From a virus: 64,000 nt of DNA. Made by a program: the position numbers and the translations under genes. The notes beneath the pieces are model-generated. The model worked only from the letters and a program-made list of their open reading frames with translations, made no database searches and had not been told where the DNA came from. Below, in pieces: positions 1-47,934 of this stretch. Position 1 is the first letter of the stretch. Every line of letters begins with the position of its first letter. The stretch lies in IMG/VR virus record IMGVR_UViG_3300011113_000805, positions 186,001 through 250,000 of that record; one strand, 5' to 3'.

Positions 1-171
1 GAGATATCTCTCAGTCTGAGTGTCTTCCTCCGGAGGCGGCTTGGGAGTGCCTAAACGAACATTTGCAAAGGCGTACTTCCCAAGAGGAGCATTGTGTGGG
101 GCAACCGGGGTATAGGTCTCGTCAGACTCGAGAAGAACTTGGCGAATGAGAGAGCGGAGGAGCTGGGTCAT
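1..171 (-). CDS. ADP-ribosyltransferase-like ejected protein, N-terminal part
   Basis: Only the first 57 codons are inside the window; the gene runs off the left edge. The start ATG (171..169) overlaps the TGA of the upstream gene. Residues 1-16 form the basic tag helix (LLRSLIRQVLLE, then S), ending in the L-x-E motif expected for prohead-protease cleavage. The following APLGKYAFA and a Pro/Glu-rich linker match the linker of the 44.8-47.9 kb ADP-ribosyltransferase paralogs. The catalytic domain lies outside, so the assignment rests on tag and linker similarity. Confidence 0.7.
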   Translation of the reverse strand, partial: MTQLLRSLIRQVLLESDETYTPVAPHNAPLGKYAFANVRLGTPKPPPEEDTQTERYL

Positions 172-1190
172 CTTAGTTTATATCTTAGTTTATCCTTGAG
201 ATGTTCCGGAACATCCTCCCAGTATTTGCGATCGAGGCCGTAGATAGCACCGCGCACCTGGAGATCTATTGGAAGGGAGGTGATACCTGTGCTGTGAAGG
301 ACGAGATCGCCACCCACATGGAGGCCTGTCGGGAGGGAGGTGATAGGGGTGTTGTAGAGGTTGAGATGGCCACCCACGTGGAGGCCTGTCGGGAGGGAGG
401 TGATACCTGTGTTACTGAGGTAGGTATCGCCCTTCATGATCCTCTGATCTTCCGGGAGTTGCTCGAGATGTTTCAGTGCTTTCAAGACTGCCCGTATAGG
501 ATCCCACTTCCCAGCTTCGAAGTCACCCATTGCCGAGCGACGAAGAGCCGACTGCTTCACGGGTCGACCCTCTCTGGCGCTGATATCGGGACGATCGAGA
601 GGCGCAAGAAGAGCTGCCCTGTCAACGGGTGTCCAGGATTTAGAACCAACCTGCTTCCACGCCATTGGAACCGCGGTCGTTGGGTCGTAAACGACGGCGA
701 CCCTACCATCATTCCTGCCTGTGAAGACGATACCCTTTACTTCGTGCTGGAGAGACTCATAGACGTTGTGGGCCGAGCTTGAAGTAAATTTGTTGTCCTT
801 CGGTGGTTTAACCTCCTCCAGCACCTTGATGACTGTCTCACTGTAGCCGACTTCCTGGGCTTGCCCAGCAGGTGTGAGCGGGCGCTTATAGACCTTTAGG
901 GCGATCTCAGGATCAAAGATGATGTACCCGTAGAGGTTCACTTTGAGCTTGATGACGTGGTCACCGTAGTAACCTCTTTCAGTCTTCGTATCTTTAAGGT
1001 CATAGACAGTGTAGAGACCCTTCCCGTACATTGCACCGGCACCGGTACCTGGTGTGAACTTGTCCTGCAGCAGAGCGTCGATGAGAGCCTGTGGGTCAGC
1101 TCCTGTCCCATGATAGACGACGGTCTGGGCGCCATAAACTTCTTCCAGGAGGAGGGTTTCACGAATGAAAGAGCGAAGGAGATATGACAT
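168..1190 (-). CDS. PARP-like ADP-ribosyltransferase with leucine-rich repeats, tagged
   Basis: 340 residues. Residues 1-17 are the tag helix (LLRSFIRETLLLEE). Residues 22-180 resemble the H-Y class of ADP-ribosyltransferases: YHGTG gives His27 and YGKGLY gives Tyr60, as in the NAD-binding core of PARP and diphtheria-toxin folds. The third acidic residue cannot be placed confidently (VVYDP near 166-170 is a candidate). Residues 255-318 hold three 20-residue leucine-rich repeats of the form TGITSLPTGLxVGGxLxL, likely for protein binding. Inferred role: an effector packaged in the capsid and injected to modify a host target. The stop overlaps the next gene's ATG. The enzymatic call is inference; the repeats are directly visible. 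Confidence 0.65.
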   Translation of the reverse strand: MSYLLRSFIRETLLLEEVYGAQTVVYHGTGADPQALIDALLQDKFTPGTGAGAMYGKGLYTVYDLKDTKTERGYYGDHVIKLKVNLYGYIIFDPEIALKVYKRPLTPAGQAQEVGYSETVIKVLEEVKPPKDNKFTSSSAHNVYESLQHEVKGIVFTGRNDGRVAVVYDPTTAVPMAWKQVGSKSWTPVDRAALLAPLDRPDISAREGRPVKQSALRRSAMGDFEAGKWDPIRAVLKALKHLEQLPEDQRIMKGDTYLSNTGITSLPTGLHVGGHLNLYNTPITSLPTGLHVGGDLVLHSTGITSLPIDLQVRGAIYGLDRKYWEDVPEHLKDKLRYKLR

Positions 1191-13941: not shown

Positions 13942-14442
13942 TTAATTTTTCTGCTTAACCAACTGAGTTCCACCATAATTTTTCTTGAGCCAATTATTTA
14001 ACTGCACATCAGCGTCAGGTAAAGTGGCATCATCAGGAAGTGATTCAATATCTTTGCCAAGGTCAATGAGAAACTTGTCCTCAACACCGTTGTCTAAGAT
14101 ATCAGAAACATCTGGATCAATTGTAAGAAAGTCCCAAAGCGGACTAGATTCTTTCTCTTTTGGTTTTAGATTTTTTACAATATCAAGGAGATCCTTAATT
14201 TCTGCACCGGCTTCAATTGCATCACTTACAAATGAGGCACCTGGGATAAGAGATAGGGCACCTTTAAGACCTAGAACACCTAACTTTTTTGCCGCATGGG
14301 CACCGGTATCTTTAAGTTTCTTACCTCTAGCGGCACGAAGCTGATTGCGAAGTTCTCCCACTTGGATGTCTTCCTGCATTATTCGCAAAGCTTCATCACG
14401 AATTACCTTACGTAGAGCTGCCTCTGTGATTCTCATAGTCAT
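13942..14442 (-). CDS. Tagged protein with a hydrophobic Gly/Ala helix
   Basis: 166 residues. Tag: MRITEAALRKVIRDEALRIMQED, with I-M-Q-E as a variant cleavage site. A basic stretch (RAARGKKLKDTGAHAAKK) is followed by a hydrophobic Gly/Ala-rich segment (LGLKGALSLIPGASFVSDAI, about 53-72) and an acidic C-terminal domain (WDFLTIDPDVSDIL). The hydrophobic part could contact membrane, but this is speculative. The start overlaps the end of the next gene. Confidence 0.7.
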   Translation of the reverse strand: MTMRITEAALRKVIRDEALRIMQEDIQVGELRNQLRAARGKKLKDTGAHAAKKLGVLGLKGALSLIPGASFVSDAIEAGAEIKDLLDIVKNLKPKEKESSPLWDFLTIDPDVSDILDNGVEDKFLIDLGKDIESLPDDATLPDADVQLNNWLKKNYGGTQLVKQKN

Positions 14443-15059
14443 AACCCCTTTGGCATGTCGCTGCCGGCCTTAATCATTCCAAGATCCCTTAGCTTAATTA
14501 TGACCGAGGGATTGTTTTTTAAGTATCGTTTGGAGAGAGGCGAATCTTCCCAGGCAACATCAGCATCGTATTCAGCTGAATCTTGCTGACAGTTATCTTC
14601 ATCGGTATCAGGTGTCAGCTCATTTTGTAAGTTGTCAAGCTGACGCTTTTCGATATCACTCCTGCCGGCATATTTTTGCCAGACATGACGAGCTCTTTGT
14701 GACACTTCAGCCCGGTCTGACATGAGACCACCACCCTCAAGTGTCGCAATCTCCATTGCAATGTCGTAGAGGAGAGGACCAAGTTTAGGAATCTCCGAGA
14801 GTGACCAAGTGACTTCCCAGGCATCATTGCACACACCCTGCTTCTTAGTAGTTTTAGCAATGTTTATGATGGCTTGGCTGTATGTGCCATGAGTTTTCAT
14901 GTTGGCTATGATTGACCATTGTGGACGGGAACTAGTGCCAGATGATTTCATTATTCTAAACTCGATACCCATTTCCTGAGCTAGCTCAGGTGTCACAGCG
15001 GTCTCTCGAAGGAGCTCACGTCTTACCATGCGGCGAAGTCTTGTCTCTGTGATTCTCAT
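14439..15059 (-). CDS. Tagged protein of the GPLLYDIAME family
   Basis: 206 residues from ATG 15059. Tag MRITETRLRRMVRRELLRET with the L-R-E site. The body shares a block with the genes at 41337 and 44063 and more weakly 15621 and 55999: an opening TPELAQEMGIEFRIMK, then LGPLLYDIAMEIA (about 106-118), LMSDRAEVS, VWQKYA and EDNC. The A-type helix after GLGPLL is reminiscent of the GNAT acetyl-CoA loop, but this is only a resemblance. Likely packaged cargo of unknown activity. Confidence 0.75.
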   Translation of the reverse strand: MRITETRLRRMVRRELLRETAVTPELAQEMGIEFRIMKSSGTSSRPQWSIIANMKTHGTYSQAIINIAKTTKKQGVCNDAWEVTWSLSEIPKLGPLLYDIAMEIATLEGGGLMSDRAEVSQRARHVWQKYAGRSDIEKRQLDNLQNELTPDTDEDNCQQDSAEYDADVAWEDSPLSKRYLKNNPSVIIKLRDLGMIKAGSDMPKGL

Positions 15060-15128
15060 ATGACGAAATCTTCCCCTGCAGCTTGTATGTATGCCAGGTG
15101 AGATAAAACGTGTAATGAAAATTGACAA

Positions 15129-15148
15129 TGGGGGATTATAATCCCCCA
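15129..15148. repeat. 20-bp palindrome around an ATTATAAT core
   Basis: TGGGGGATTATAATCCCCCA, perfectly symmetrical, 70 bases upstream of the 15059 start. The core resembles a -10 box inside an operator-like palindrome, so it may be a regulated promoter or a hairpin. Confidence 0.6.
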
Positions 15149-15205
15149 CGTCATAAATCAGAGACTTAGGCTTGTATGCTTTGTCCCGTTATGAGCTCTT
15201 GTGCC

Positions 15206-15460
15206 TCAAAGATATTCCGGGCCGGCGACATCATTGAGGTAACCCTCACACCATCCACGGACTTCATCCTGCATCATGGCACAAGCATCTTCAGGATCGA
15301 TCCCTGCCATTGTCATCTGATCCATGTATTCTTCCATTGCATTGGACAGTGCCTCAGTCGCGGCTGCCTGGGATTCATTGAGCCGACGTCCTCTCCGGAA
15401 CTTTCCTGCTTCTTCACGAACAATACGACGAAGTGTCGCCTCAGTAAGCTTAACGGCCAT
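15206..15460 (-). CDS. Small tagged protein, 84 aa
   Basis: Tag MAVKLTEATLRRIVREEAGKF followed by RRGRRLNES, where L-N-E then Ser is the likely cleavage site. The remainder is an acidic helical domain (AAATEALSNAMEEYMDQM, DPEDACAMMQDEV). AAAGGAGATACA precedes the ATG. A GCATAGATA motif lies about 40 bases upstream. Confidence 0.75.
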   Translation of the reverse strand: MAVKLTEATLRRIVREEAGKFRRGRRLNESQAAATEALSNAMEEYMDQMTMAGIDPEDACAMMQDEVRGWCEGYLNDVAGPEYL

Positions 15461-15498
15461 TGTATCTCCTTTGGGGGTCTATATGTTGCCCCAGTTTC

Positions 15499-15507
15499 TA
15501 TCTATGC
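15499..15507 (-). promoter_or_regulatory. Candidate late promoter motif GCATAGATA
   Basis: Minus strand GCATAGATA, 39-47 bases before the start at 15460. The same motif occurs at the same distance before the 16220, 16961 and 44029 starts, all tagged-protein genes. Confidence 0.5.
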
Positions 15508-15540
15508 AGCACCCGTAGGAAAGGGCTCAAAAGACCCAAA

Positions 15541-15608
15541 ACTATCCGAGCGCTTGTTGCAAGTGGTGCTTAACAGCTACAGCACCTACTCACGTCTGCT
15601 CGGATAGT
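15541..15608 (-). ncRNA. Structured intergenic element
   Basis: Arms ACTATCCGAGC at 15541-15551 and its exact complement at 15598-15608 enclose an inner hairpin (GGTGCT paired with AGCACC). On the minus strand the outer stem is followed by TTTTGGGTCTTTTG. The TTTTGGGTCTTTTG part recurs near 16290-16310. It may be a terminator or leader RNA. Confidence 0.45.
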
Positions 15609-15620
15609 TGATCCCTATCG

Positions 15621-16220
15621 TCAAATCCCGGGTGGCATATCACTGTCGGCAGTGAGCTGACCAGAATTTTTGAGCTGGATTAATGCAGAGGGACTCCTTA
15701 TTATGTATCGGTACCGGTATATACTATCCTTCTCCCAAGGATTGTTCTTGAGCGTGATCTTTTGGGCACCACTTTCACCACTCATAAACAGACGCCAAAG
15801 ATCCTCATCATAGACATCATCGGCATATAAGCCGTGTTCCGCAACGGCTCCTTTACCTACAAGCGATGCAATTTCGATTCCAAGCGTCCAGAGGAAGACC
15901 CTTAGAGAATGTGGTGCATCGTCATATCCCATGCTCCTAATCTCCCAGGCACCATCAAGGCCCGCAGTATCTGCACTACTGTTATCGATAATGATACCGG
16001 CTACCATATGAGCACCTAGATGATCGGCGCGCGGGGTCCCGTTGTATACCCTCACGTCATAGTATCCCGGCCACTTTGTAAAATATTTGATTCGGAATAT
16101 GTAATTACCCGGCACACCCGCCCCGGTTGTGCTGCCACCTGGCAGCTGCTCGCCTGCCTCTCGAAGGATTTCGCTTCTTACCATACGACGAAGTACTGCC
16201 TCAGTAAGTTTAACTGTCAT
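15621..16220 (-). CDS. Tagged protein, GPLLYDIAME-like family, 199 aa
   Basis: Tag MTVKLTEAVLRRMVRSEILREA with the L-R-E cleavage site. The body has the order seen in its relatives (a beta-rich first half, WEIRSMGYDDAPHSLRVFLWTLGIEIASLVGKG, then an acidic C-terminal half with a closing LIQLKNSGQL). The central block is divergent, so the family link is moderate. Unknown activity, presumed head cargo. Confidence 0.7.
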   Translation of the reverse strand: MTVKLTEAVLRRMVRSEILREAGEQLPGGSTTGAGVPGNYIFRIKYFTKWPGYYDVRVYNGTPRADHLGAHMVAGIIIDNSSADTAGLDGAWEIRSMGYDDAPHSLRVFLWTLGIEIASLVGKGAVAEHGLYADDVYDEDLWRLFMSGESGAQKITLKNNPWEKDSIYRYRYIIRSPSALIQLKNSGQLTADSDMPPGI

Positions 16221-16258
16221 TTTGCCTCCCTTAAGGGCCCATATGTTGGCCTAGTCTT

Positions 16259-16267
16259 ATATCTATG
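16259..16267 (-). promoter_or_regulatory. Candidate late promoter motif CATAGATAT
   Basis: Minus strand GCATAGATAT about 40 bases upstream of the tagged gene starting at 16220. The surrounding 70 bases resemble the 15461-15540 leader. Confidence 0.5.
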
Positions 16268-16311
16268 CAGTCACCGGCTGTGGTGATCCCAAAAGACCCA
16301 AAACTACATTG

Positions 16312-16629
16312 TCACCACGTGCCTTGCCTGGGCATCCACTGATCAATGAATCCGTGCTCGTCGATATCAAGACTAGGATGATTTTGTACGGCTTTGATTA
16401 CGTCATGTGGAGAAACTTTCTTTCCGATTTTCGGAGTCAGAAAATCTGCCATACTTTCAGGAGTCCATGGACCAGGATCCCCTTCCATTAATTCGTCTAG
16501 AATCATTCCACCAATTTCACCGGTGAATGTGTCATATCCTTCATTACCATATGATGGATCAGCATATGCCTCCTTTAGAATTTCCTGCCTAACAATCTTT
16601 CTTAGATGTGACTCTGTGATTCTCGTCAT
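16312..16629 (-). CDS. Small tagged protein, 105 aa
   Basis: Tag MTRITESHLRKIVRQEILKEA with the L-K-E site. The remaining 85 residues are acidic and helical (GGMILDELMEGDPGPW, MADFLTPKIGKKVSPHDVIKAVQNHP), perhaps a small helix-turn-helix-like domain. The ATG overlaps the TGA of the gene before it. Confidence 0.75.
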   Translation of the reverse strand: MTRITESHLRKIVRQEILKEAYADPSYGNEGYDTFTGEIGGMILDELMEGDPGPWTPESMADFLTPKIGKKVSPHDVIKAVQNHPSLDIDEHGFIDQWMPRQGTW

Positions 16630-16961
16630 GCCTCCTTTACTACTAGTGGATCAGCAGAAGTGCCCCAGCAAAAGAGCCCCTTATGGTAATAAGCTTCCCA
16701 TTGTTCCCCATTCTCGCTGTCGCGGAACAATAGAACTGTCTGCTGGGCTGGAACGCCTATCCTGGCTTCCTCACCAGATTCAGTGAACCAGCCAACAAAT
16801 TCGTTAACTCCCGTCATTCCTGAGACATGGTATTTGTTTCCAATCTCCAGGTGCACAAAATTCCGTGTGTTGACTTCTTCTTCCACTTCACCTGTTGATT
16901 CATGCAGCTTTCGAATCTCGTTGCGTACGATTCTACGAAGTTGTGACTCTGTGATTCTCAT
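16626..16961 (-). CDS. Small tagged protein, 111 aa
   Basis: Tag MRITESQLRRIVRNEIRKLHES, site L-H-E followed by Ser. The rest is beta-rich (YHVSGMTGVNEFVGWFTESGEEARI, QQTVLLFRDSENGEQW) and resembles a small barrel. AGGAG precedes the ATG. It is co-transcribed with the gene at 16312. Confidence 0.75.
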   Translation of the reverse strand: MRITESQLRRIVRNEIRKLHESTGEVEEEVNTRNFVHLEIGNKYHVSGMTGVNEFVGWFTESGEEARIGVPAQQTVLLFRDSENGEQWEAYYHKGLFCWGTSADPLVVKEA

Positions 16962-26806: not shown

Positions 26807-26891
26807 TGGTAGCCCCAGCCGGACTCGAACCGGCACGCTCAATGAACAAGAGATTTTGAGTCTCTCGCGTCTTCCGTTCCGCCATGGGGCC
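26807..26891 (-). tRNA. tRNA-Leu (anticodon CAA)
   Basis: Class II tRNA with a long variable arm. Anticodon stem AGAGA/TCTCT with loop CTCAAAA, T arm GCCGG-TTCGAGT-CCGGC, discriminator A and encoded CCA. Position 1 pairs G-U with position 72. Confidence 0.9.
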
Positions 26892-26898
26892 AATGAAG

Positions 26899-26973
26899 TG
26901 GTGGGTCATCCGAGACTCGAACTCGGAACTAACGGATTAAGAGTCCGCTACTCTACCATTGAGTTAATGACCC
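26899..26973 (-). tRNA. tRNA-Lys (anticodon CTT)
   Basis: Cloverleaf with acceptor GGGTCAT, anticodon loop CTCTTAA, T loop TTCGAGT and encoded ACCA 3' end. Confidence 0.92.
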
Positions 26974-26978
26974 GAAGA

Positions 26979-27054
26979 TGGTGGGTTGTCTGGGGCTTGA
27001 ACCCAGGGCCTACGGATTAAAAGTCCGCTGCTCTACCGACTGAGCTAACAACCC
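26979..27054 (-). tRNA. tRNA-Lys (anticodon TTT)
   Basis: Acceptor GGGTTGT, D arm AGCTCAGTCGGTAGAGC, anticodon loop CTTTTAA, T loop TTCAAGC and encoded CCA. It lies next to the CTT isoacceptor, likely a tandem duplicate that diverged. Confidence 0.92.
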
Positions 27055-27058
27055 ATAA

Positions 27059-27146
27059 TGGAGGAAGCGGTGGGATTCGAACCCACGATCCCTTTCAGGA
27101 TGCCGGTTTTCAAGACCGGAGCCTTAAACCGCTCGGCCACGCTTCC
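27059..27146 (-). tRNA. tRNA-Ser (anticodon TGA)
   Basis: Class II tRNA. Acceptor GGAAGCG, anticodon stem CCGGT/ACCGG with loop CTTGAAA, long variable arm, T arm GTGGG-TTCGAAT-CCCAC and CCA. The discriminator base is U, whereas bacterial serine tRNAs usually have G. Confidence 0.9.
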
Positions 27147-27150
27147 AAGA

Positions 27151-27225
27151 TGGTACTCCCAACGGGAATCGAACCCGTGTTACCGGAGTGAAAATCCGGT
27201 GTCCTGACCGTTAGACGATGGGAGC
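27151..27225 (-). tRNA. tRNA-Glu (anticodon TTC)
   Basis: Anticodon stem CCGGA/TCCGG with loop TTTTCAC, T arm ACGGG-TTCGATT-CCCGT and encoded ACCA. Reads GAA and probably GAG. Confidence 0.92.
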
Positions 27226-27228
27226 GAA

Positions 27229-27302
27229 TGGTTGGGGTGGTAGGATTCGAACCCACATAGCCTGATCCAAAGTCAGGCGTCCTGCCGTTGGACGACACCC
27301 CA
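27229..27302 (-). tRNA. tRNA-Gln (anticodon TTG)
   Basis: Acceptor TGGGGTG, anticodon loop CTTTGGA, T loop TTCGAAT and encoded ACCA. Typical bacterial glutamine tRNA layout. Confidence 0.92.
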
Positions 27303-27319
27303 GTAATGAAAGAATGAAG

Positions 27320-27396
27320 TGGTGCTGAAGGTGGGAATCGAACCCACGGCCTGCGGTTTACAAGACCGCTGCTCTGGCCAACTGAGCTACTTCAGC
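27320..27396 (-). tRNA. tRNA-Thr (anticodon TGT)
   Basis: Acceptor GCTGAAG, anticodon stem GCGGT/ACCGC with loop CTTGTAA, T loop TTCGATT and encoded ACCA. Its first ten bases overlap the last codons of the gene at 27387-27638. Confidence 0.92.
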
Positions 27397-27638
27397 ATTT
27401 TCTCGGCCGTCGCCAGCGACTCATTCACATGAACCCAGCTGCCCTCCCGCAGGAGGATGACACAACCTCCGATAGGCCAATCCAACAGGGTCGGCGGCAA
27501 CATGTTCCAGCTGCTCACCCCTGGAGGAAGAGGGTAAGGAATGCAGGTGAGGATCTCATCCCGAGTAAAGACCCGTTCGGGATAAGTCCACCCGCCGCCG
27601 GGGCCAGGGGTAACAATGCTGAAGGTGAGCTCTTCCAC
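27387..27638 (-). CDS. SH3-like mini-protein inside the tRNA cluster
   Basis: 83 residues, GTG start. The C-terminal half (GGCVILLREGSWVHV) has the strand-turn-strand of the family. The stop codon lies inside tRNA-Thr, so mRNA and tRNA are on one transcript that must be processed. Class I promoter 23 bases upstream. Confidence 0.65.
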   Translation of the reverse strand: MEELTFSIVTPGPGGGWTYPERVFTRDEILTCIPYPLPPGVSSWNMLPPTLLDWPIGGCVILLREGSWVHVNESLATAEKMLK

Positions 27639-27660
27639 GTCGACGTCCTCAGGATTAGAA

Positions 27661-27687
27661 TATAATCACTTTGGTGATTTTGAACAG
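27661..27687 (-). promoter_or_regulatory. Class I phage promoter
   Basis: Minus strand CTGTTC, here 15 bases ending AAAGTG, then ATTATA. It should drive the mini-protein and the seven tRNAs downstream. Confidence 0.65.
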
Positions 27688-27720
27688 GCGGTGCCTGCAC
27701 TTTCTTCAACTTTTCTTGAG

Positions 27721-27796
27721 TGGCTCCGGCAACAGGACTCGAACCTGTGACCCGCGGATTAACAGTCCGCTGCTCTACCGACTGAGCTATGCCGGA
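27721..27796 (-). tRNA. tRNA-Asn (anticodon GTT)
   Basis: Acceptor TCCGGCA, anticodon stem GCGGA/TCCGC with loop CTGTTAA, T loop TTCGAGT, discriminator G and encoded CCA. Confidence 0.92.
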
Positions 27797-27801
27797 ATAA
27801 G

Positions 27802-27878
27802 TGGTCTCCTCGACAGGACTTGAACCTGTGACCCCCGCGTTAGGAATGCGGTGCTCTATCCAACTGAGCTACGAGGAG
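27802..27878 (-). tRNA. tRNA-Arg (anticodon CCT)
   Basis: Acceptor CTCCTCG, anticodon loop TTCCTAA with a mismatched A-C closing pair, T loop TTCAAGT and encoded ACCA. It reads AGG, a rare codon in many bacteria. Confidence 0.9.
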
Positions 27879-41336: not shown

Positions 41337-41933
41337 TCACTCGAACTTAATCAATCCCAAACCGGTGAGAGCATCGATGGTTGGTGTTCCTTTCTTTCTA
41401 TAAACTTTGGAAAGTGGTGATCCCTGCCACGTTTCGCCAGGCTGTAGTTTCGCATTAGATGACCTTTGAATACAGTCATCCTCTTCTATGTCAGGTGTGA
41501 TTGTGCCTGGCTTTGAATCAAGCTGTTGATAATGAACATCCGAACGATTGTCATAGTAATACTGCCATACCCTTTTTGCATCAGGTGAAATAATTTTTCT
41601 GTCAGACATCAAGCCAGCAGGACCGGCCAGCTCCATAGCTATATCATAGAGGAGTGGACCCAGCCCGCGGATTCTTGTGTCAGAAGTGTTAACTTCGTAT
41701 GCACCTAAGCAATTCCCGTAGTCTGGCATAGGACGAGCCATTGACAAGGTTCCAACTGAATTGTAGGCATCTTCGAATTTCTCAGCTATAATACGATACC
41801 CGCCTAGTCCAAATTTTGTTTTTGTTACTTTAAAATGTATTCCAAGTTCTGCAGCTTTCTTCGGGGTTAGTGCTGCCTCGACAAGAAGGGTCTCACGGAT
41901 GAGCTGTCGAAGCCTATGCTCAGTGATTCTCAT
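41337..41933 (-). CDS. Tagged protein of the GPLLYDIAME family
   Basis: 198 residues from ATG 41933 (ATGA overlap). Tag MRITEHRLRQLIRETLLVEA with the L-V-E site. The body starts LTPKKAAELGIHFKVTK and contains GLGPLLYDIAMELA, LMSDRKIISPDAKRVWQYY, QQLD and EEDDC in the same order as 14439 and 44063, then a C-terminal LSKVYRK and TIDALTGLGLI. Last gene of the four-gene operon starting at 44029. Confidence 0.8.
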   Translation of the reverse strand: MRITEHRLRQLIRETLLVEAALTPKKAAELGIHFKVTKTKFGLGGYRIIAEKFEDAYNSVGTLSMARPMPDYGNCLGAYEVNTSDTRIRGLGPLLYDIAMELAGPAGLMSDRKIISPDAKRVWQYYYDNRSDVHYQQLDSKPGTITPDIEEDDCIQRSSNAKLQPGETWQGSPLSKVYRKKGTPTIDALTGLGLIKFE

Positions 41934-43027
41934 GATACACTCACAATTTCCATCCAGTCGGCCCAAATTGTTCCAAGACCGATGACTTCCTTTTCACTTG
42001 AGAAGTCTTCAAATTCATCAAGGTCCACACCGTAGAAACCCTCAGCATCGAGGAATTTACCAGGATTATTCGCTTTGCTGGCAGCAAAGACTACGGCATA
42101 CAAATTCTTTCCTCTCCTATGCCTATTACGTAATGAGAATTCCTTGGCAATCTCATATGAGGATGACCATGAGGAGGAAAATCTGTCTTCAAGTGGCTTA
42201 ATCTCGAATTTCCCCTTCATCTCCTGCGTCTTGATGCTTGAATCAATTTTCGTGATATCAATCCCCATTCTTTCAAGATCATCGATGTTGAGCAACATTC
42301 CTCGATAGTAGGTACCAGAAGGAGGTTCCATGAAGATGTCTGGGTAGAGGTTGTCCTTTATAAAGCTCATGGCAAGTTGTGATTGCTGGCGAGAAAGGGA
42401 ACGTTTTCCTAAGAAGTGATTACGGATTGAACGAAGAAGGGCGTTCTCAATACTAGTGTTCTTCTCCATTGGAGGAGGACGGGCATTCATCATCTGTCTT
42501 TGCGGTGAGAATGCATACTTGCCAAGTGGGGATTCAGGTGGTGCCTTGGGCTCATATGCAGCCTCATACTCGGCAGCTCTACGACTCTCATCATCAGCTT
42601 CGCGACTTCTCTTCTCCTTTGTGATGGAGTCCGCATCCTTCCGGAGACGGTTTCCCACCCTCTTGATTCCCCTGGAAGCTCTCAGGTTCTTCCTATCATC
42701 GTTGTTGATGAACCTGACAAGCTGTCGGTAGATCCTAGCTAGGAATTTCCCGCCCGGTGTCTCTTTAAGAACGCTGTCGATGACATCATCAGGAGACTCA
42801 TTGGCACCGTAGTCGAACCTGAAACCGGGTACAGACTCCTCGATGATACCAGCAAACTCACCATATGTCGGCCATCGACCGTTGATCACCTCGAAGCTGG
42901 ATCGAATCGTGAACTTCCAATAGTCAAAGACGCCATGGATGGAGTCACCGTCAGAATAGTTGATCCTCGCCTCCGTTAGTAACGTCTCGCGGACGAGCTG
43001 TCGAAGCCTAGACTCAGTGATTCTCAT
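41930..43027 (-). CDS. Tagged ADP-ribosyltransferase-like protein with extra N-domain
   Basis: 365 residues. Tag MRITESRLRQLVRETLLTEA. Residues 21-160 are an additional charged helical domain not found in the paralogs. Residues 165-365 form the catalytic-type domain: Arg242 in TYYRGMLL, SSSW at 284-287 and E345-K-E347 before VIGLGTI, the R-S-ExE arrangement of arginine-specific ADP-ribosyltransferases such as T4 Alt and ModA. T4 Alt is likewise a packaged, injected enzyme with a cleavable N-terminal tag. Substrate unknown. Confidence 0.8.
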   Translation of the reverse strand: MRITESRLRQLVRETLLTEARINYSDGDSIHGVFDYWKFTIRSSFEVINGRWPTYGEFAGIIEESVPGFRFDYGANESPDDVIDSVLKETPGGKFLARIYRQLVRFINNDDRKNLRASRGIKRVGNRLRKDADSITKEKRSREADDESRRAAEYEAAYEPKAPPESPLGKYAFSPQRQMMNARPPPMEKNTSIENALLRSIRNHFLGKRSLSRQQSQLAMSFIKDNLYPDIFMEPPSGTYYRGMLLNIDDLERMGIDITKIDSSIKTQEMKGKFEIKPLEDRFSSSWSSSYEIAKEFSLRNRHRRGKNLYAVVFAASKANNPGKFLDAEGFYGVDLDEFEDFSSEKEVIGLGTIWADWMEIVSVS

Positions 43028-43503
43028 GGCAGCTCTCCCTTGTAATAATGACTTCCTTTATCTTCCGGAAGTTCACTGAGATCTCGTCTCTCACCCTCTC
43101 GGAAGCCAGCAGCAATAAAGGCTCTTTGCGACTCTTTGTTTATATCTGCAATCCAAACCCTTGCTGGTAAATGCGAAGGATCGTTAAAGAACTCACTGAT
43201 TGCCTTTCTTGCATAGCCTTTGCCTCTTGCCGATGGATCGACGTAAATTGCCCCAGCACGCCAATAGCCTCTATCAAATCTAGGAGTCATAAATCCTACA
43301 GGGTTACCGGAATCATCAAGTATTACGAAACGCGCTGCATCCTTTTCAGGCCCCTTTACGAGGTTCAATCCGGCAAACTCAGGATGCCTGTCTGCATCAT
43401 TAAGGAGACTGTTGAGACGTTCTATGCCTTGATTACCAAGTGATGCTGGTTTAGTCAGTTCCTCCCTAATAAGCTGTCGAAGGAGCGTTTCTATGATGTG
43501 CAT
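43024..43503 (-). CDS. Tagged GNAT acetyltransferase
   Basis: 159 residues from ATG 43503. The tag IIETLLRQLIREELTKPAS ends without a clear L-x-E (I-R-E is the nearest). The GNAT fold is clear: NPVGFMTPRFDRGYWRAGAIYVDPSARGKGYARKAI holds motif A, with the acetyl-CoA loop RGKGYA at about 109-114, followed by VWIADINKESQRAFIAAGF. Likely acetylates a host protein or nucleotide after injection, though this is inference. It overlaps both neighbours. Confidence 0.85.
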   Translation of the reverse strand: MHIIETLLRQLIREELTKPASLGNQGIERLNSLLNDADRHPEFAGLNLVKGPEKDAARFVILDDSGNPVGFMTPRFDRGYWRAGAIYVDPSARGKGYARKAISEFFNDPSHLPARVWIADINKESQRAFIAAGFREGERRDLSELPEDKGSHYYKGELP

Positions 43504-43504
43504 T

Positions 43505-44029
43505 CTAATCATTGTCCTTAAATGATAGACTCCTGGTAACACTTGGCATTGTACTTGTCGCTTTCCTGAAAGCATTCATGTATTCTTTTGATGTTACATT
43601 GTGCCGTCTATTTTTGTAATCAGGGAAGCCTTCATCTGCCATCACCCGTTCCATATGAGACTCATCCTCACCGGCCTCCAAGCGAACCTTGTTAAGATGC
43701 TCAATTGTTCCAGTGTATGGACTATATCGACTACTAAATCCAACAAGACTCTTTGTTAGTGTTTGTGCAGGTTCCTGAATCCACTCATCATCACGTTTAA
43801 TGTATTGTTCATAAACTACCCGACCACCGTCATCAGCATTGTCATCCCGTTGCATCTCAATTACACGCGCAATCTGACCTGCATCACCCGAGAATATGAA
43901 TAAGTCTGAAAAGTGCGGTGTGAGAGTCTTTCGAGAACGCTTTAACTTAAAGTCGACTGGAACAACATCACCTTCATGGATGAGCTCTTCCCTAACAATG
44001 CGTCTTAAGATTTTTTCTGAAATTATCAT
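43505..44029 (-). CDS. Tagged protein of unknown function, 174 aa
   Basis: Tag MIISEKILRRIVREELIHEG with the I-H-E site. The body is beta-rich and charged (LFIFSGDAGQIARVIEMQRDD, VVYEQYIKRDDEWI) with a basic C-terminus. No recognised family. First gene of an overlapping operon; ends in TAG two bases above the GNAT start. GCATAGATA motif about 35 bases upstream. Confidence 0.7.
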   Translation of the reverse strand: MIISEKILRRIVREELIHEGDVVPVDFKLKRSRKTLTPHFSDLFIFSGDAGQIARVIEMQRDDNADDGGRVVYEQYIKRDDEWIQEPAQTLTKSLVGFSSRYSPYTGTIEHLNKVRLEAGEDESHMERVMADEGFPDYKNRRHNVTSKEYMNAFRKATSTMPSVTRSLSFKDND

Positions 44030-44058: not shown

Positions 44059-44067
44059 ATATCTATG
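44059..44067 (-). promoter_or_regulatory. Candidate late promoter motif CATAGATAT
   Basis: Minus strand GCATAGATAT, 30-39 bases upstream of the 44029 start, overlapping the end of the 44063 gene. Confidence 0.5.
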
Positions 44068-44692
44068 CATAAACGATTAGATCAAGCTCGAGCAACGCAT
44101 CAAGGGTAGATGTTTGTCCATCAGCACGTTTGTAAGCTTTAGACAAAGACGACTCAGGCCACATTTCTTCGGTACCATACATGTCATCTGACCATATTCT
44201 TGCGCTGGATTGCACACAGTCGTCTTCTGGGTCTTTTGTCCGAGGTGCCTCTATATCATCGAGTTGTTGTGACCTGATATCAGGCCTTTTGGCATGATAA
44301 TAATCCCAGACACGATGTGCGTTATGAGATACATTTACACGGTCCGAGGTAAGTGGGTCAGGATTGACAAGGTCAATCATAAGGTCATACATAAGTGGAC
44401 CAAGACCATCAATGTATACATAAGATCCATCAATTGACCAAGCACCTAAACATGGATCATTTTCCTTGTGACAAGATAAAAATCCGGCTGTGGTATTATC
44501 ATTTCGATAATATGCTCGGATTTCAATATACTCTGCCTGACGTCTATCTTTGATCTTAAATTTTATGCCTTTTCTTTGTGCATCACTTGGACTTAAAGCA
44601 GCCTCGGTTAGAAGATAAAACTCACGAATGAGTTGACGCAGTTTACGCTCTGCTAGTTTGATGTTGCATCTCAAGTTAGGGATATTTCTCAT
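44063..44692 (-). CDS. Tagged protein of the GPLLYDIAME family
   Basis: 209 residues from ATG 44692. The tag is displaced by about ten residues: LAERKLRQLIREFYLLTEAALSP. The body shares SPSDAQRKGIKFKIKD, GLGPLMYDLMIDLV, LTSDRVNVSHNAHRVWDYY, QQLDD and DDCVQSSA with the genes at 14439 and 41337. Presumed head cargo of unknown activity. Confidence 0.8.
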   Translation of the reverse strand: MRNIPNLRCNIKLAERKLRQLIREFYLLTEAALSPSDAQRKGIKFKIKDRRQAEYIEIRAYYRNDNTTAGFLSCHKENDPCLGAWSIDGSYVYIDGLGPLMYDLMIDLVNPDPLTSDRVNVSHNAHRVWDYYHAKRPDIRSQQLDDIEAPRTKDPEDDCVQSSARIWSDDMYGTEEMWPESSLSKAYKRADGQTSTLDALLELDLIVYA

Positions 44693-44846
44693 GACTATTT
44701 TCCCTTGCCTGTAGTTTGAATAGCTTTTGTTTCTCAAACGTGGGATCTGTCGCATCTGAAGTGTACTGAAGCTCTTGTGTTCTTTTCGCAAATCCCGCAA
44801 AGTCCTCAAGTAGAATTTCATGAATCAGATTTCTAATAGTGTTCAT
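44676..44846 (-). CDS. Small tagged protein, 56 aa
   Basis: MNTIRNLIHEILLED (L-L-E site), then FAGFAKRTQELQYTSDATDPTFEKQ and a charged end. The segment after the tag resembles the start of the larger tagged protein at 58102 (RQGFKSRTSNINY...), so this is a minimal or truncated relative. The ATG overlaps the previous gene's TGA, and the end overlaps the next gene by 17 bases. Confidence 0.7.
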   Translation of the reverse strand: MNTIRNLIHEILLEDFAGFAKRTQELQYTSDATDPTFEKQKLFKLQARENSHEKYP

Positions 44847-45622
44847 GTGATTCTCACAATATACATGTGATCTAGCTTGATAGATCCAATGCTAATAACT
44901 TCTTGCTCACGTGTATAAATGCCTCCTATGCCACCAATGCCATACAATGACTTAGCATCTAAAAACTTATAACGGTTATCAGCAGGTGATGCACAAAGAA
45001 TTACGTTATACAAATGCTTTGAACCTGCAGGCATAGACCAATATCCTCTATTTGCAAATTCGGTGGCAATTTTAGCGCTGATTGTCCATGAAGACACAGG
45101 GCGATTATCCTTATTTGTGATCACGGTATTGGTGTCATATCGTTCAGCAATTTTTCTCAAATCTTCTGTGGTCTCGATTTCAAATGAATCTTTTGCTTCA
45201 AGAGTCTCGACATCAGAAAACAGATTAGGTGGAAGCATTTTTCTTAATGTGTCGATTGATAGCAAAACACCTCTATAGACAACGTCTTCCTCAGGTTCCT
45301 TAAAAACGTCTGAGTATTTTCCTTTTTTCAAGAAATCAGAAACGATGTTGGCATATTCAGAATTTTTTGTAAATGATTGGCTGCTTTCCGGATCGGAGAA
45401 GTGCATATACAAAGACCAAAAGAGTTTTTGTTCGAAATCCGTATTTGGTTCTTGCGGAGGACGTGGTAGAGGTGCCGGGGGCCCTTGACGCTGTGGAGAA
45501 AAAGCGTACCTCCCTAGTGGCTCATCAGCTGTCATATTGGCAAGAGCCTTTTCGTCTGATTCACTCTCAGCCAATAGGATCTGACGTATAATATGACGAA
45601 TGTTTTTCTCACTCATCATCAT
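44843..45622 (-). CDS. Tagged ADP-ribosyltransferase-like protein
   Basis: 259 residues. Tag MSEKNIRHIIRQILLAES with the L-A-E site. A Pro-rich linker (EPLGRYAFSPQRQ...PRPPQEPNT) joins a domain with Arg117 in VVYRGVLL, SSW at 177-179 and E239-Q-E241 before VISIGSI, the R-S-ExE set. AAGGAGGAGTC precedes three ATG codons. Confidence 0.8.
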   Translation of the reverse strand: MMMSEKNIRHIIRQILLAESESDEKALANMTADEPLGRYAFSPQRQGPPAPLPRPPQEPNTDFEQKLFWSLYMHFSDPESSQSFTKNSEYANIVSDFLKKGKYSDVFKEPEEDVVYRGVLLSIDTLRKMLPPNLFSDVETLEAKDSFEIETTEDLRKIAERYDTNTVITNKDNRPVSSWTISAKIATEFANRGYWSMPAGSKHLYNVILCASPADNRYKFLDAKSLYGIGGIGGIYTREQEVISIGSIKLDHMYIVRIT

Positions 45623-46376
45623 AAGACTCCTCCTTTATTCTGCAGGCCAAAACACTATTGACCTGAATTGTTCCTGTCCCAATGACTTCTTCTTCATAAT
45701 CATAGGAACTAATCTCTCTAAGACGATAAAGTCCTTCACAGTCTATAAATTTTCCTGGATTGTTTTCGATTTTGGCACAGAAAACAATGCAAATATCATC
45801 TTCAACTGCATTCTTTAGGGAAAATTTGACTGCTGTAGAAAGCGCTTTAGTCCAAGATGTTGTATATTTCCCACCCCTGTTTGTGATATCAATTTTCATG
45901 TTAAGCTTTTTCATTCTCTTGCCAATGGCATCAAAATCACCATCGTAATTCATGCCACCAATTGTATTGGGTATGTTGACAAAAGGAATTTTTTCAATGT
46001 CAATATTTGGCAAAACGCTCTTTATGCTTGAAGAACCTTCGAAATGAATTCCACGGTAAATTGTAGCTGCAGGTGGCTCCGCAAAGATATCAGAATAGAG
46101 GCCGACTCTAATGAATTCCTTGATTTGATTAACAGTTTCCTGAGGTATTGGCAAATTATTTCGAAAATGAGAAACTAACTGTAAACGTAAGCCCTCTTCA
46201 TCTGTCGTGTTTTGCTCATAGGGAGGTAATGGTGATCGTGCCCAATGACGATTCGATGCATCGGCAAATGCATACTTTCCAAGTGGGGCATCAATAGGTG
46301 CCTCTGGTTTGTAAGAGTCAACAGCTTCGGTCAAAAGAATATGACGTATAAGCTGTAGGATTGTGGAATCATTCAT
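45609..46376 (-). CDS. Tagged ADP-ribosyltransferase-like protein
   Basis: 255 residues from ATG 46376 (AAAGGAAAC upstream). Tag NDSTILQLIRHILLTEA with the L-T-E site, linker APLGKYAFA...PPYEQNT, Arg108 in TIYRGIHF, TSW at 173-175 (one Ser replaced by Thr), and E228-E-E230 before VIGTGTI. Paralog of its neighbours. Confidence 0.8.
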   Translation of the reverse strand: MNDSTILQLIRHILLTEAVDSYKPEAPIDAPLGKYAFADASNRHWARSPLPPYEQNTTDEEGLRLQLVSHFRNNLPIPQETVNQIKEFIRVGLYSDIFAEPPAATIYRGIHFEGSSSIKSVLPNIDIEKIPFVNIPNTIGGMNYDGDFDAIGKRMKKLNMKIDITNRGGKYTTSWTKALSTAVKFSLKNAVEDDICIVFCAKIENNPGKFIDCEGLYRLREISSYDYEEEVIGTGTIQVNSVLACRIKEESYDDE

Positions 46377-46401
46377 CGCATGTTTCCTTTTAATGGCTTG
46401 T

Positions 46402-47142
46402 TCATGAACTAATAATTTTCTTCGTGACAAATATCTTGTTCACTCGAATCGTATCTACGCCAATAATTTCCCGTTCATCCTTAAATGGTTCGAAATCTCG
46501 AAGCCAATACAGGGGTGACATGTCAATAAACTTTAAAGGGTTCTCTTCCACATCAGCACACAAAATAACCGCATAACCACTTTCACCTTGCGCCAAATTT
46601 AGTTTGTCTAAGTTTCGAATGGCAAATTTCTCAGCTATCTGCTTGCTTTTTGACCATGAGGACGAATATCTGGCTTCTGTATTTGTAATGTCAATATTGA
46701 CATCAATTTCTATTTCTTTGTGAGGTGGCATGTTAAGTATTTGAGATGACTCTACATCAGCCGGCATCCATTTCATCAATGAATTGCTGCTCACGGCTAT
46801 ACCTCGATGTGCTATGACAAATATTGAAGGTTCCGCAAAAATATCAGAATAGAGCCCATTACGAATGAACTCCATAATTTGATTAGCGTATTGATAAGGA
46901 AGTGCATGTTTTCCAACTTCTGTGTGCAATTGCAATGCCCCCAATAGCTTCAATTCTGCGGCATTGTTTCTTTCCCATGGTGGTTTAGGTCTTTGCAGTC
47001 TTTGGTGTAATCCACTGGGCAGATGTGTACCAGCAAATGCATATTTCCCAAGAGGTGCATCAGCAGATTCCTCAGGATCATAAGGCGTAGCAGATTCAGC
47101 CAAAAGGATTTGATGCACAAGAGAACGGAGGTACGTCTTCAT
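46402..47142 (-). CDS. Tagged ADP-ribosyltransferase-like protein
   Basis: 246 residues. Tag MKTYLRSLVHQILLAES with the L-A-E site; linker APLGKYAFAG...PKPPWERNN. Arg113 in AHRGIAV replaces the usual YRG context, SSSW at 160-163, and E223-R-E225 before IIGVDTI. It is the most similar to the fragment at 1-171. The ATG overlaps the TAA of the next upstream gene. Confidence 0.8.
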   Translation of the reverse strand: MKTYLRSLVHQILLAESATPYDPEESADAPLGKYAFAGTHLPSGLHQRLQRPKPPWERNNAAELKLLGALQLHTEVGKHALPYQYANQIMEFIRNGLYSDIFAEPSIFVIAHRGIAVSSNSLMKWMPADVESSQILNMPPHKEIEIDVNIDITNTEARYSSSWSKSKQIAEKFAIRNLDKLNLAQGESGYAVILCADVEENPLKFIDMSPLYWLRDFEPFKDEREIIGVDTIRVNKIFVTKKIISS

Positions 47143-47862
47143 TTAGACGACCCTTCTTACCGTAACAGCACTTGCTCGAATAGGTCCCAGACCGATCACT
47201 TCACTCTCAGATCGAAATTCTTCTTCAAAGTCAGCATCGAAATTGAGAATATAAAGTGGTTCTGCATCAATAAATCTGCCAGGGTTATCTACCGATTGCG
47301 CCTCAAAAACGACTGAATACATAGGGCCCCATCGGGATTTATGCTTCTCGGAAAACACGGATGCATCAATGGATGAGAATCTATCAGTCACACTTCTTAT
47401 CTGCGACCAAGACGATGCAAACCTATCCTTAAGCGGGGCAATGAGATAATTGCCGGTTCCTTTCCATGTCTCACCAACATCTAATGATGGCAGGTCAGGA
47501 ACCATGCTCAATAGTTCGGGTGTGATTAGGCGCATTCCACGATAACAAGTTCCTTCAAAAGGATGAAAGACATCTTTGTAGATGCCTTTCTTAACAAAGT
47601 CAACGATTGCTTCACCATAAGCTTTCGTAAGAGGTCTCATTCCAAAAAAATGATCACGAATTGCACGTAAAAATGCACTTTCCTTAGGATTGTTTTTCTC
47701 TAAAGGAGGTGGTTTCTGAATGCCTTGTCTCTGGGGTGAGAATGCATATTTGTCAAGAAGGGATCCCGCAGGAGCAGCTTCAATGTCACTCTCTAGAGAC
47801 TCACATAAGATCTCCTTTATCAAAAGCCTTAAATCTCTTTCATTCATTATTGAACTATGCAT
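47143..47862 (-). CDS. Tagged ADP-ribosyltransferase-like protein
   Basis: 239 residues from ATG 47862, first gene of a six-gene overlapping operon. Tag MNERDLRLLIKEILCES with the L-C-E site; linker DKYAFSPQRQ...KPPPLEKNN. Arg108 in TCYRGMRL, SSW at 150-152, and E219-S-E221 before VIGLGPI. AAGGG lies nine bases upstream; an ATG 15 bases downstream is an alternative start. Confidence 0.8.
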   Translation of the reverse strand: MHSSIMNERDLRLLIKEILCESLESDIEAAPAGSLLDKYAFSPQRQGIQKPPPLEKNNPKESAFLRAIRDHFFGMRPLTKAYGEAIVDFVKKGIYKDVFHPFEGTCYRGMRLITPELLSMVPDLPSLDVGETWKGTGNYLIAPLKDRFASSWSQIRSVTDRFSSIDASVFSEKHKSRWGPMYSVVFEAQSVDNPGRFIDAEPLYILNFDADFEEEFRSESEVIGLGPIRASAVTVRRVV

Positions 47863-47934
47863 ATGCAACAACCCTTAGGCTTTACTATTTAGGTGGTGGC
47901 ATGCAAAGCATTTAAAGATTGTGCCGAATGTAAA

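Follow-up and report, generated by a model that had tools for sequence, protein, structure and literature searches.

A family of tagged ADP-ribosyltransferase-like proteins, some ending in leucine-rich repeats, in a T4-like jumbo phage

The virus record IMGVR_UViG_3300011113_000805 (G000; 257,178 bp) contains a family of short tagged proteins with a predicted ADP-ribosyltransferase (ART) fold, five of which are encoded in the 64,000-nucleotide stretch analyzed here (bases 186001-250000 of the record; 'the window'). We read them as mono-ADP-ribosyltransferase effectors that a T4-like jumbo phage packages in its head and whose family has expanded, and we assign this reading a probability of roughly two in three. 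The analysis shows the genes, their tag and motifs, the predicted fold, a prohead protease gene and the mosaicism; packaging, cleavage, injection, catalysis and targets we infer. Late in infection, the N-terminal tag would draw each protein into the prohead core, where a gp21-type protease would cut after L-x-E and free the mature enzyme inside the head. The enzymes would then enter the next host together with the DNA and transfer ADP-ribose from nicotinamide adenine dinucleotide (NAD+) to host proteins, which would help the phage while its own genes are not yet expressed. Arginine is the expected acceptor for enzymes with an E-x-E motif. The divergence of the copies and the leucine-rich repeat (LRR) module found on half of them may direct different copies to different targets.

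A search of the record against itself revealed at least ten genes of this family, hereafter type A, all of them open and intact frames: five in the window, four at 180-186 kb of the record (L009) and one near 253-254 kb (L010). In each, an N-terminal tag and a PLGKYAF/Pro-rich linker precede a core of about 200 residues with the motifs R ... S-W ... E-x-E. The E-values for the other copies range from 1e-9 to 1e-42, and the recurrence of tag, linker and core in ten genes at such values therefore excludes chance. The copies that lie in the window or reach into it are the following, with a slash marking the end of the tag:

47143-47871, minus strand: copy A5; tag, linker and ART-like core, without repeats; the open reading frame (ORF) begins at TTG, with the ATG at 47847 the likelier start.
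46402-47142, minus strand: copy A4; tag MKTYLRSLVHQILLAE/S, linker and core.
45609-46430, minus strand: copy A3; likely start ATG 46376; tag ...LIRHILLTE/A, linker and core.
44843-45622, minus strand: copy A2; tag ...IIRQILLAE/S, linker and core; overlaps the end of A3.
41930-43027, minus strand: copy A1; tag ...LVRETLLTE/A, extra domain of about 110 residues, linker and core.
1-171, minus strand: first 57 residues of copy A9, cut by the window edge; tag, core and three repeats.

In the window copies, the columns YAF, P-P, R-G, S-W, E-x-E, D and Y are invariant over linker and core, and R-G, S-W, E-x-E, D and Y are so in 11 of 11 aligned sequences, namely the ten type-A copies and one from a related phage. 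A sequence-only reading of the window had proposed five or six copies sharing the tag, the linker and, in the complete copies, an R / S-S-W / E-x-E set. Both the ORFs and the alignment bear this out for the five window genes and the sixth, except that the residue preceding S-W varies: four window copies have S, the copy at 45609 has T and the repeat-bearing copies have A. The partial sixth gene is likewise a real paralog, whose complete 333-residue frame (G000:185170-186171; L009:13170-14171) crosses the window edge. The count itself was too low, as the record holds ten such genes plus six tagged genes of a second type.

The assignment to the ARTs comes from the fold. From an alignment of six sequences (the five window copies and the relative), AlphaFold2 modeled the A5 domain (47146-47763) with a predicted local distance difference test score (pLDDT) of 78, above 90 in the core blocks, and a predicted template-modeling score of 0.76. 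The model places the arginine on the first strand and S-W on a strand before a helix, while E-x-E opens a late strand, which is the arrangement expected of an ART:

47539-47541, minus strand: Arg of the Y-R-G motif of A5, on the first predicted strand.
47407-47412, minus strand: S-W of A5, an S-x-S-like motif, on a predicted strand followed by a helix.
47200-47208, minus strand: E-S-E of A5, the E-x-E motif invariant in all 11 sequences, at the start of a predicted strand.

Compared with viral models in BFVD using Foldseek, the core matches viral ART-type proteins, with six matches below 1e-3, the best at 4e-6 with a probability of 1.00. They include a minor capsid protein, and BFVD proteins named ADP-ribosyltransferase or RNA polymerase ADP-ribosylase score weaker than these six. 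In the PDB, pertussis toxin S1, an R-S-E toxin ART, takes all of the first nine places. Predicted model and alignment together show the fold and the ordered R, S-x-S and E-x-E motifs of the R-S-E ARTs, with the canonical S-T-S replaced by S-W-S/T, and the core very likely adopts an R-S-E-type ART-like fold. The earlier description of these proteins as ADP-ribosyltransferase-like came through the fold check, in which no fold unlike that of the ARTs was seen. A GNAT fold was ruled out, GNAT matches having a probability of 0.01 in the PDB fold search. The top fold match, a protein of Sinorhizobium phage phiN3, was not confirmed by sequence; neither an A4 profile nor PF03496 matches that genome.

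Several results weigh against our reading. The fold search of the PDB gave weak matches, with E-values of 0.11 or higher and template-modeling scores below 0.45, and no sequence match links the core to any ART family, Pfam, PHROGs and NCBIfam being silent or irrelevant. An alignment of the core profile with nine T4 Alt homologs in hhalign gave a non-significant E-value of 0.03, the best segment being in register at the catalytic arginine only. Finally, the T4-type late promoter motif (TATAAATA) is not enriched. The Alt-type model PF03496 finds T4 Alt at E 4e-38 and nothing in this record; judged by its sequence, the core is not a member of the Alt family. DNA and protein searches found no relatives of the core in isolated phages and plasmids, nor were relatives of the type-A or type-B domain found in genome contigs, and PDB sequence searches returned only noise.

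With the same fold and delivery, the enzymes could have a target other than host protein arginine: they might modify small molecules, nucleic acid or, by the RNAylation known from T4 ModB, NAD+-capped RNA, or they might simply destroy NAD+, which we regard as the strongest competing explanation, if an unlikely one. Viral ART superfamilies do include members that act on RNA and nucleic acids (PMC9503650). A tagged gene resembling nicotinamide mononucleotide adenylyltransferases (NMNAT-like; TIGR00482, E 6e-12) near an ART island also hints that NAD+ supply may matter. However, E-x-E is the signature of protein-modifying, mostly arginine-specific R-S-E enzymes, and LRRs usually bind proteins, both of which favor protein targets.

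The case for delivery by the phage head is built on the tag. Its profile has 32 hits in the record; 30 were inspected and, with few exceptions, lie at ORF starts. The hits form islands at about 181-187, 200-203, 226-235, and 251.5-257 plus 0-2 kb. Tags typically end in LLTE/A, LLAE/S or ILRE/A, and mostly in L-x-E before A or S, with weaker ends (LLLE/E, REEL) in several genes. The phage's own major capsid protein has ILKE61/A where T4 gp23 has FLTE65/A, its scaffold contains LxEA sites, and the record encodes a T4 gp21-type S77 prohead protease. In T4, gp21 cleaves after L/I-X-E, and N-terminal capsid-targeting sequences of 10 residues suffice for packaging and delivery (PMC9026906). The features of T4-type capsid targeting are found here as well: an N-terminal peptide with L/I-x-E before A, S or G, a cognate protease, and the same site in head proteins. 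Because the tag is N-terminal and ends in L-x-E before A or S, because the capsid protein has the same type of site and because a gp21-type protease is present, it is a well-supported inference that the tagged proteins are packaged in the head and injected into the host. The tag also occurs on the contig of a different phage.

Alternatively, the tag might be some other docking or leader peptide, with the enzymes acting only in the cell in which they are made. The tag is indeed longer than the 10-residue sequence of T4, and some tagged genes lack a clean L-x-E end before A or S. Yet its N-terminal position in nearly all inspected genes, its capsid-like protease site, the accompanying gp21-type protease and its recurrence in another phage all speak for packaging, and we consider this explanation improbable. 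As a separate observation, the protease gene (L017:12364-14076; G000 about 88.4-90.1 kb) is split by an intein-like insert (GE/CVPPGTEILTLSGW ... VVWTGN/CDHPDSS), and the Pfam match to the S77 prohead protease comes in two halves, about 1 kb apart.

Beyond the shared core, the family is elaborated by repeats. Five of the ten type-A copies, all outside the window or crossing its edge, end in three to eight LRRs of 20 residues and a C-terminal cap. The same repeat and cap module terminates six further tagged genes, type B, whose enzyme domain carries H/Y motifs (VYHGT ... GKGLYTVYD ... DG); one of them is interrupted by the record ends and one lies in the window:

168-1190, minus strand: type-B gene B1; tag, H/Y-motif domain (VYHGT ... 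GKGLYTVYD ... DG), three repeats and C-cap.

The type-B enzyme domain has no Pfam match, and its model (pLDDT 37) is too poor to use; it represents a second ART-like family, which resembles the H-Y-x ARTs by motif only. Type-B relatives occur on five IMG/VR contigs, where they are tagged, in one case in tandem, and bear repeats wherever the contig is long enough. Other phage contigs also encode tagged proteins of about 640 residues (L030:1900-3759, L014:2942-4861); the one on L030, beside type-B ART-like genes, has leucine-rich-repeat-variant (LRV) repeats (E 7e-47), a further combination of tag and repeats.

For type A, IMG/VR contains a relative in one phage (L013), a single copy with the architecture of A1 and 55% identity to it, on a contig that ends soon afterwards. 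A1 groups with this copy and A5, and the repeat-bearing copies form one clade. Between the latter, the ratio of nonsynonymous to synonymous substitution rates (dN/dS) is about 0.2-0.5, which is consistent with constraint. Positive selection across the cores is unsupported, as dN/dS is below 1, with dS near saturation for several pairs. The islands that hold copies A9 and A10 lie about 67 kb apart. One segment of these two genes is 95-100% identical in nucleotides and the remainder 60-82%, which points to recombination or gene conversion. Tag-linker and C-cap, too, are more similar between copies than the cores. The sequence-only reading had raised an arms race; copy number and mosaicism agree with this, but the dN/dS values among the repeat-bearing copies do not indicate positive selection.

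A more far-reaching view, which we put forward tentatively and think somewhat less likely true than false, is that of a modular, recombining effector arsenal. Each protein would combine a capsid tag, an enzyme of one of two ART-like types and an interchangeable LRR/cap module of three to eight repeats, and segment exchange between islands would retarget ADP-ribosylation to new host or anti-phage proteins. Another possibility is that most copies are decaying or structural paralogs, with A1 the one active enzyme and the rest packaged as filler or kept as a reservoir for recombination. A clear counterpart on the contig of the related phage exists for A1 alone, and the copies recombine. But all ten keep the catalytic residues, their frames are unbroken and dN/dS is below 1 among the repeat-bearing copies, and this seems very improbable.

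Other tagged genes adjoin the type-A copies in the window:

44063-44821, minus strand: tagged gene of the 'GLGPLxYD' family; its tag sits some 54 codons inside the open frame, and translation may therefore start internally.
43505-44029, minus strand: tagged gene between A1 and A2.
43024-43575, minus strand: tagged GNAT acetyltransferase adjoining A1 (Pfam PF00583, E 1e-6).
41337-41966, minus strand: tagged gene of the 'GLGPLxYD' family; likely start 41933, a 4-nucleotide overlap with A1.

The 'GLGPLxYDIxM...SDR...AxRVWxYY' paralogs, which have no family match, apparently number four, the two others being located at 14439-15149 of the window and at L010:2972-3616. A further island of short tagged genes, without the ART core, was found by tag search at 13942-16961. 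The NMNAT-like gene mentioned above (L009:4606-5286) lies about 3 kb from the ART-LRR island; its product, similar to adenylyltransferases of nicotinamide or nicotinic acid mononucleotide, has a tag-like N-terminus that is missing from the tag-profile list. This protein is possibly a packaged NAD+-making enzyme. An untagged Nudix protein is encoded near the second island.

The first and last 165 bases of the record (L018:1-165; L010:9013-9177) are 98.8% identical. Since its ends match in this way, the record is probably a complete, circularly permuted genome, cut within one of the tagged-gene arrays. It is classed as linear despite the 165-bp terminal overlap, the assembly having broken inside the repeat-rich array. 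The major capsid protein is of the gp23 type, T4-like but distant, with its best matches in Microcystis phage Mel-JY01 (35%), uncultured huge phages and Flavobacterium phages. Nine tRNA genes are clustered at 26807-27878 of the window.

Sixteen tagged genes in several clusters apparently encode ART-like proteins, and in many of these a repeat module could set the specificity; such natural paralogs make it possible to compare what injected ARTs modify and why there are so many. The tag and its site should also allow injected proteins of T4-like metagenomic phages to be predicted from sequence. Neither Pfam nor PHROGs nor NCBIfam detects this sequence family, so such arsenals are under-counted. 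Known head-packaged ARTs, such as T4 Alt, occur singly. We found no description of tandem, tagged ART-LRR arrays in the literature searched, which does not prove novelty, and head-targeted ART-LRR proteins in a mosaic tandem array seem to be new.

Among known systems, T4 Alt shares with the type-A proteins the predicted ART fold, the R/S/E motif order and a T4-like phage; Alt is head-packaged and proteolyzed after L-x-E, as we propose for the copies here. T4 itself carries remnants of an alt duplication (alt.-1/-2). The proteins described here differ in their ten copies, their LRR fusions, a core of about 200 residues that lacks the large N-terminal region of Alt, and S-W in place of S-T-S; no sequence homology to Alt was detected. 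Phage MuF-ART and polyvalent-protein ARTs are likewise injected ART domains, and a protein annotated as a minor capsid protein is among the BFVD matches, but ours are short tagged proteins that stand alone, outside any MuF, portal or giant polyprotein. A survey of viral NAD+/ADP-ribose systems reports MuF-fused ARTs, and ARTs in more than 40% of jumbo phages, with at least 10 in Bacillus phage G (PMC9503650), so that many ARTs in one phage are not as exceptional as had been suggested. Phage G, whose Gp233 and Gp53 are weak fold matches of the core in BFVD, differs in that we see one tandem, tagged, mosaic paralog family; a term search of the survey finds no LRRs (PMC9503650). The SlrP/IpaH-type LRR effectors of bacterial secretion systems, finally, also join a 20-residue LRR to an enzyme in a delivered protein, and the LRR here matches SlrP weakly (NCBIfam, E 0.036). 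Given a different enzyme, delivery by the phage head and a bacterial host, this is an analogy only, but if the view of a modular arsenal is true, that arsenal would follow a logic similar to that of the LRR effectors in those systems.
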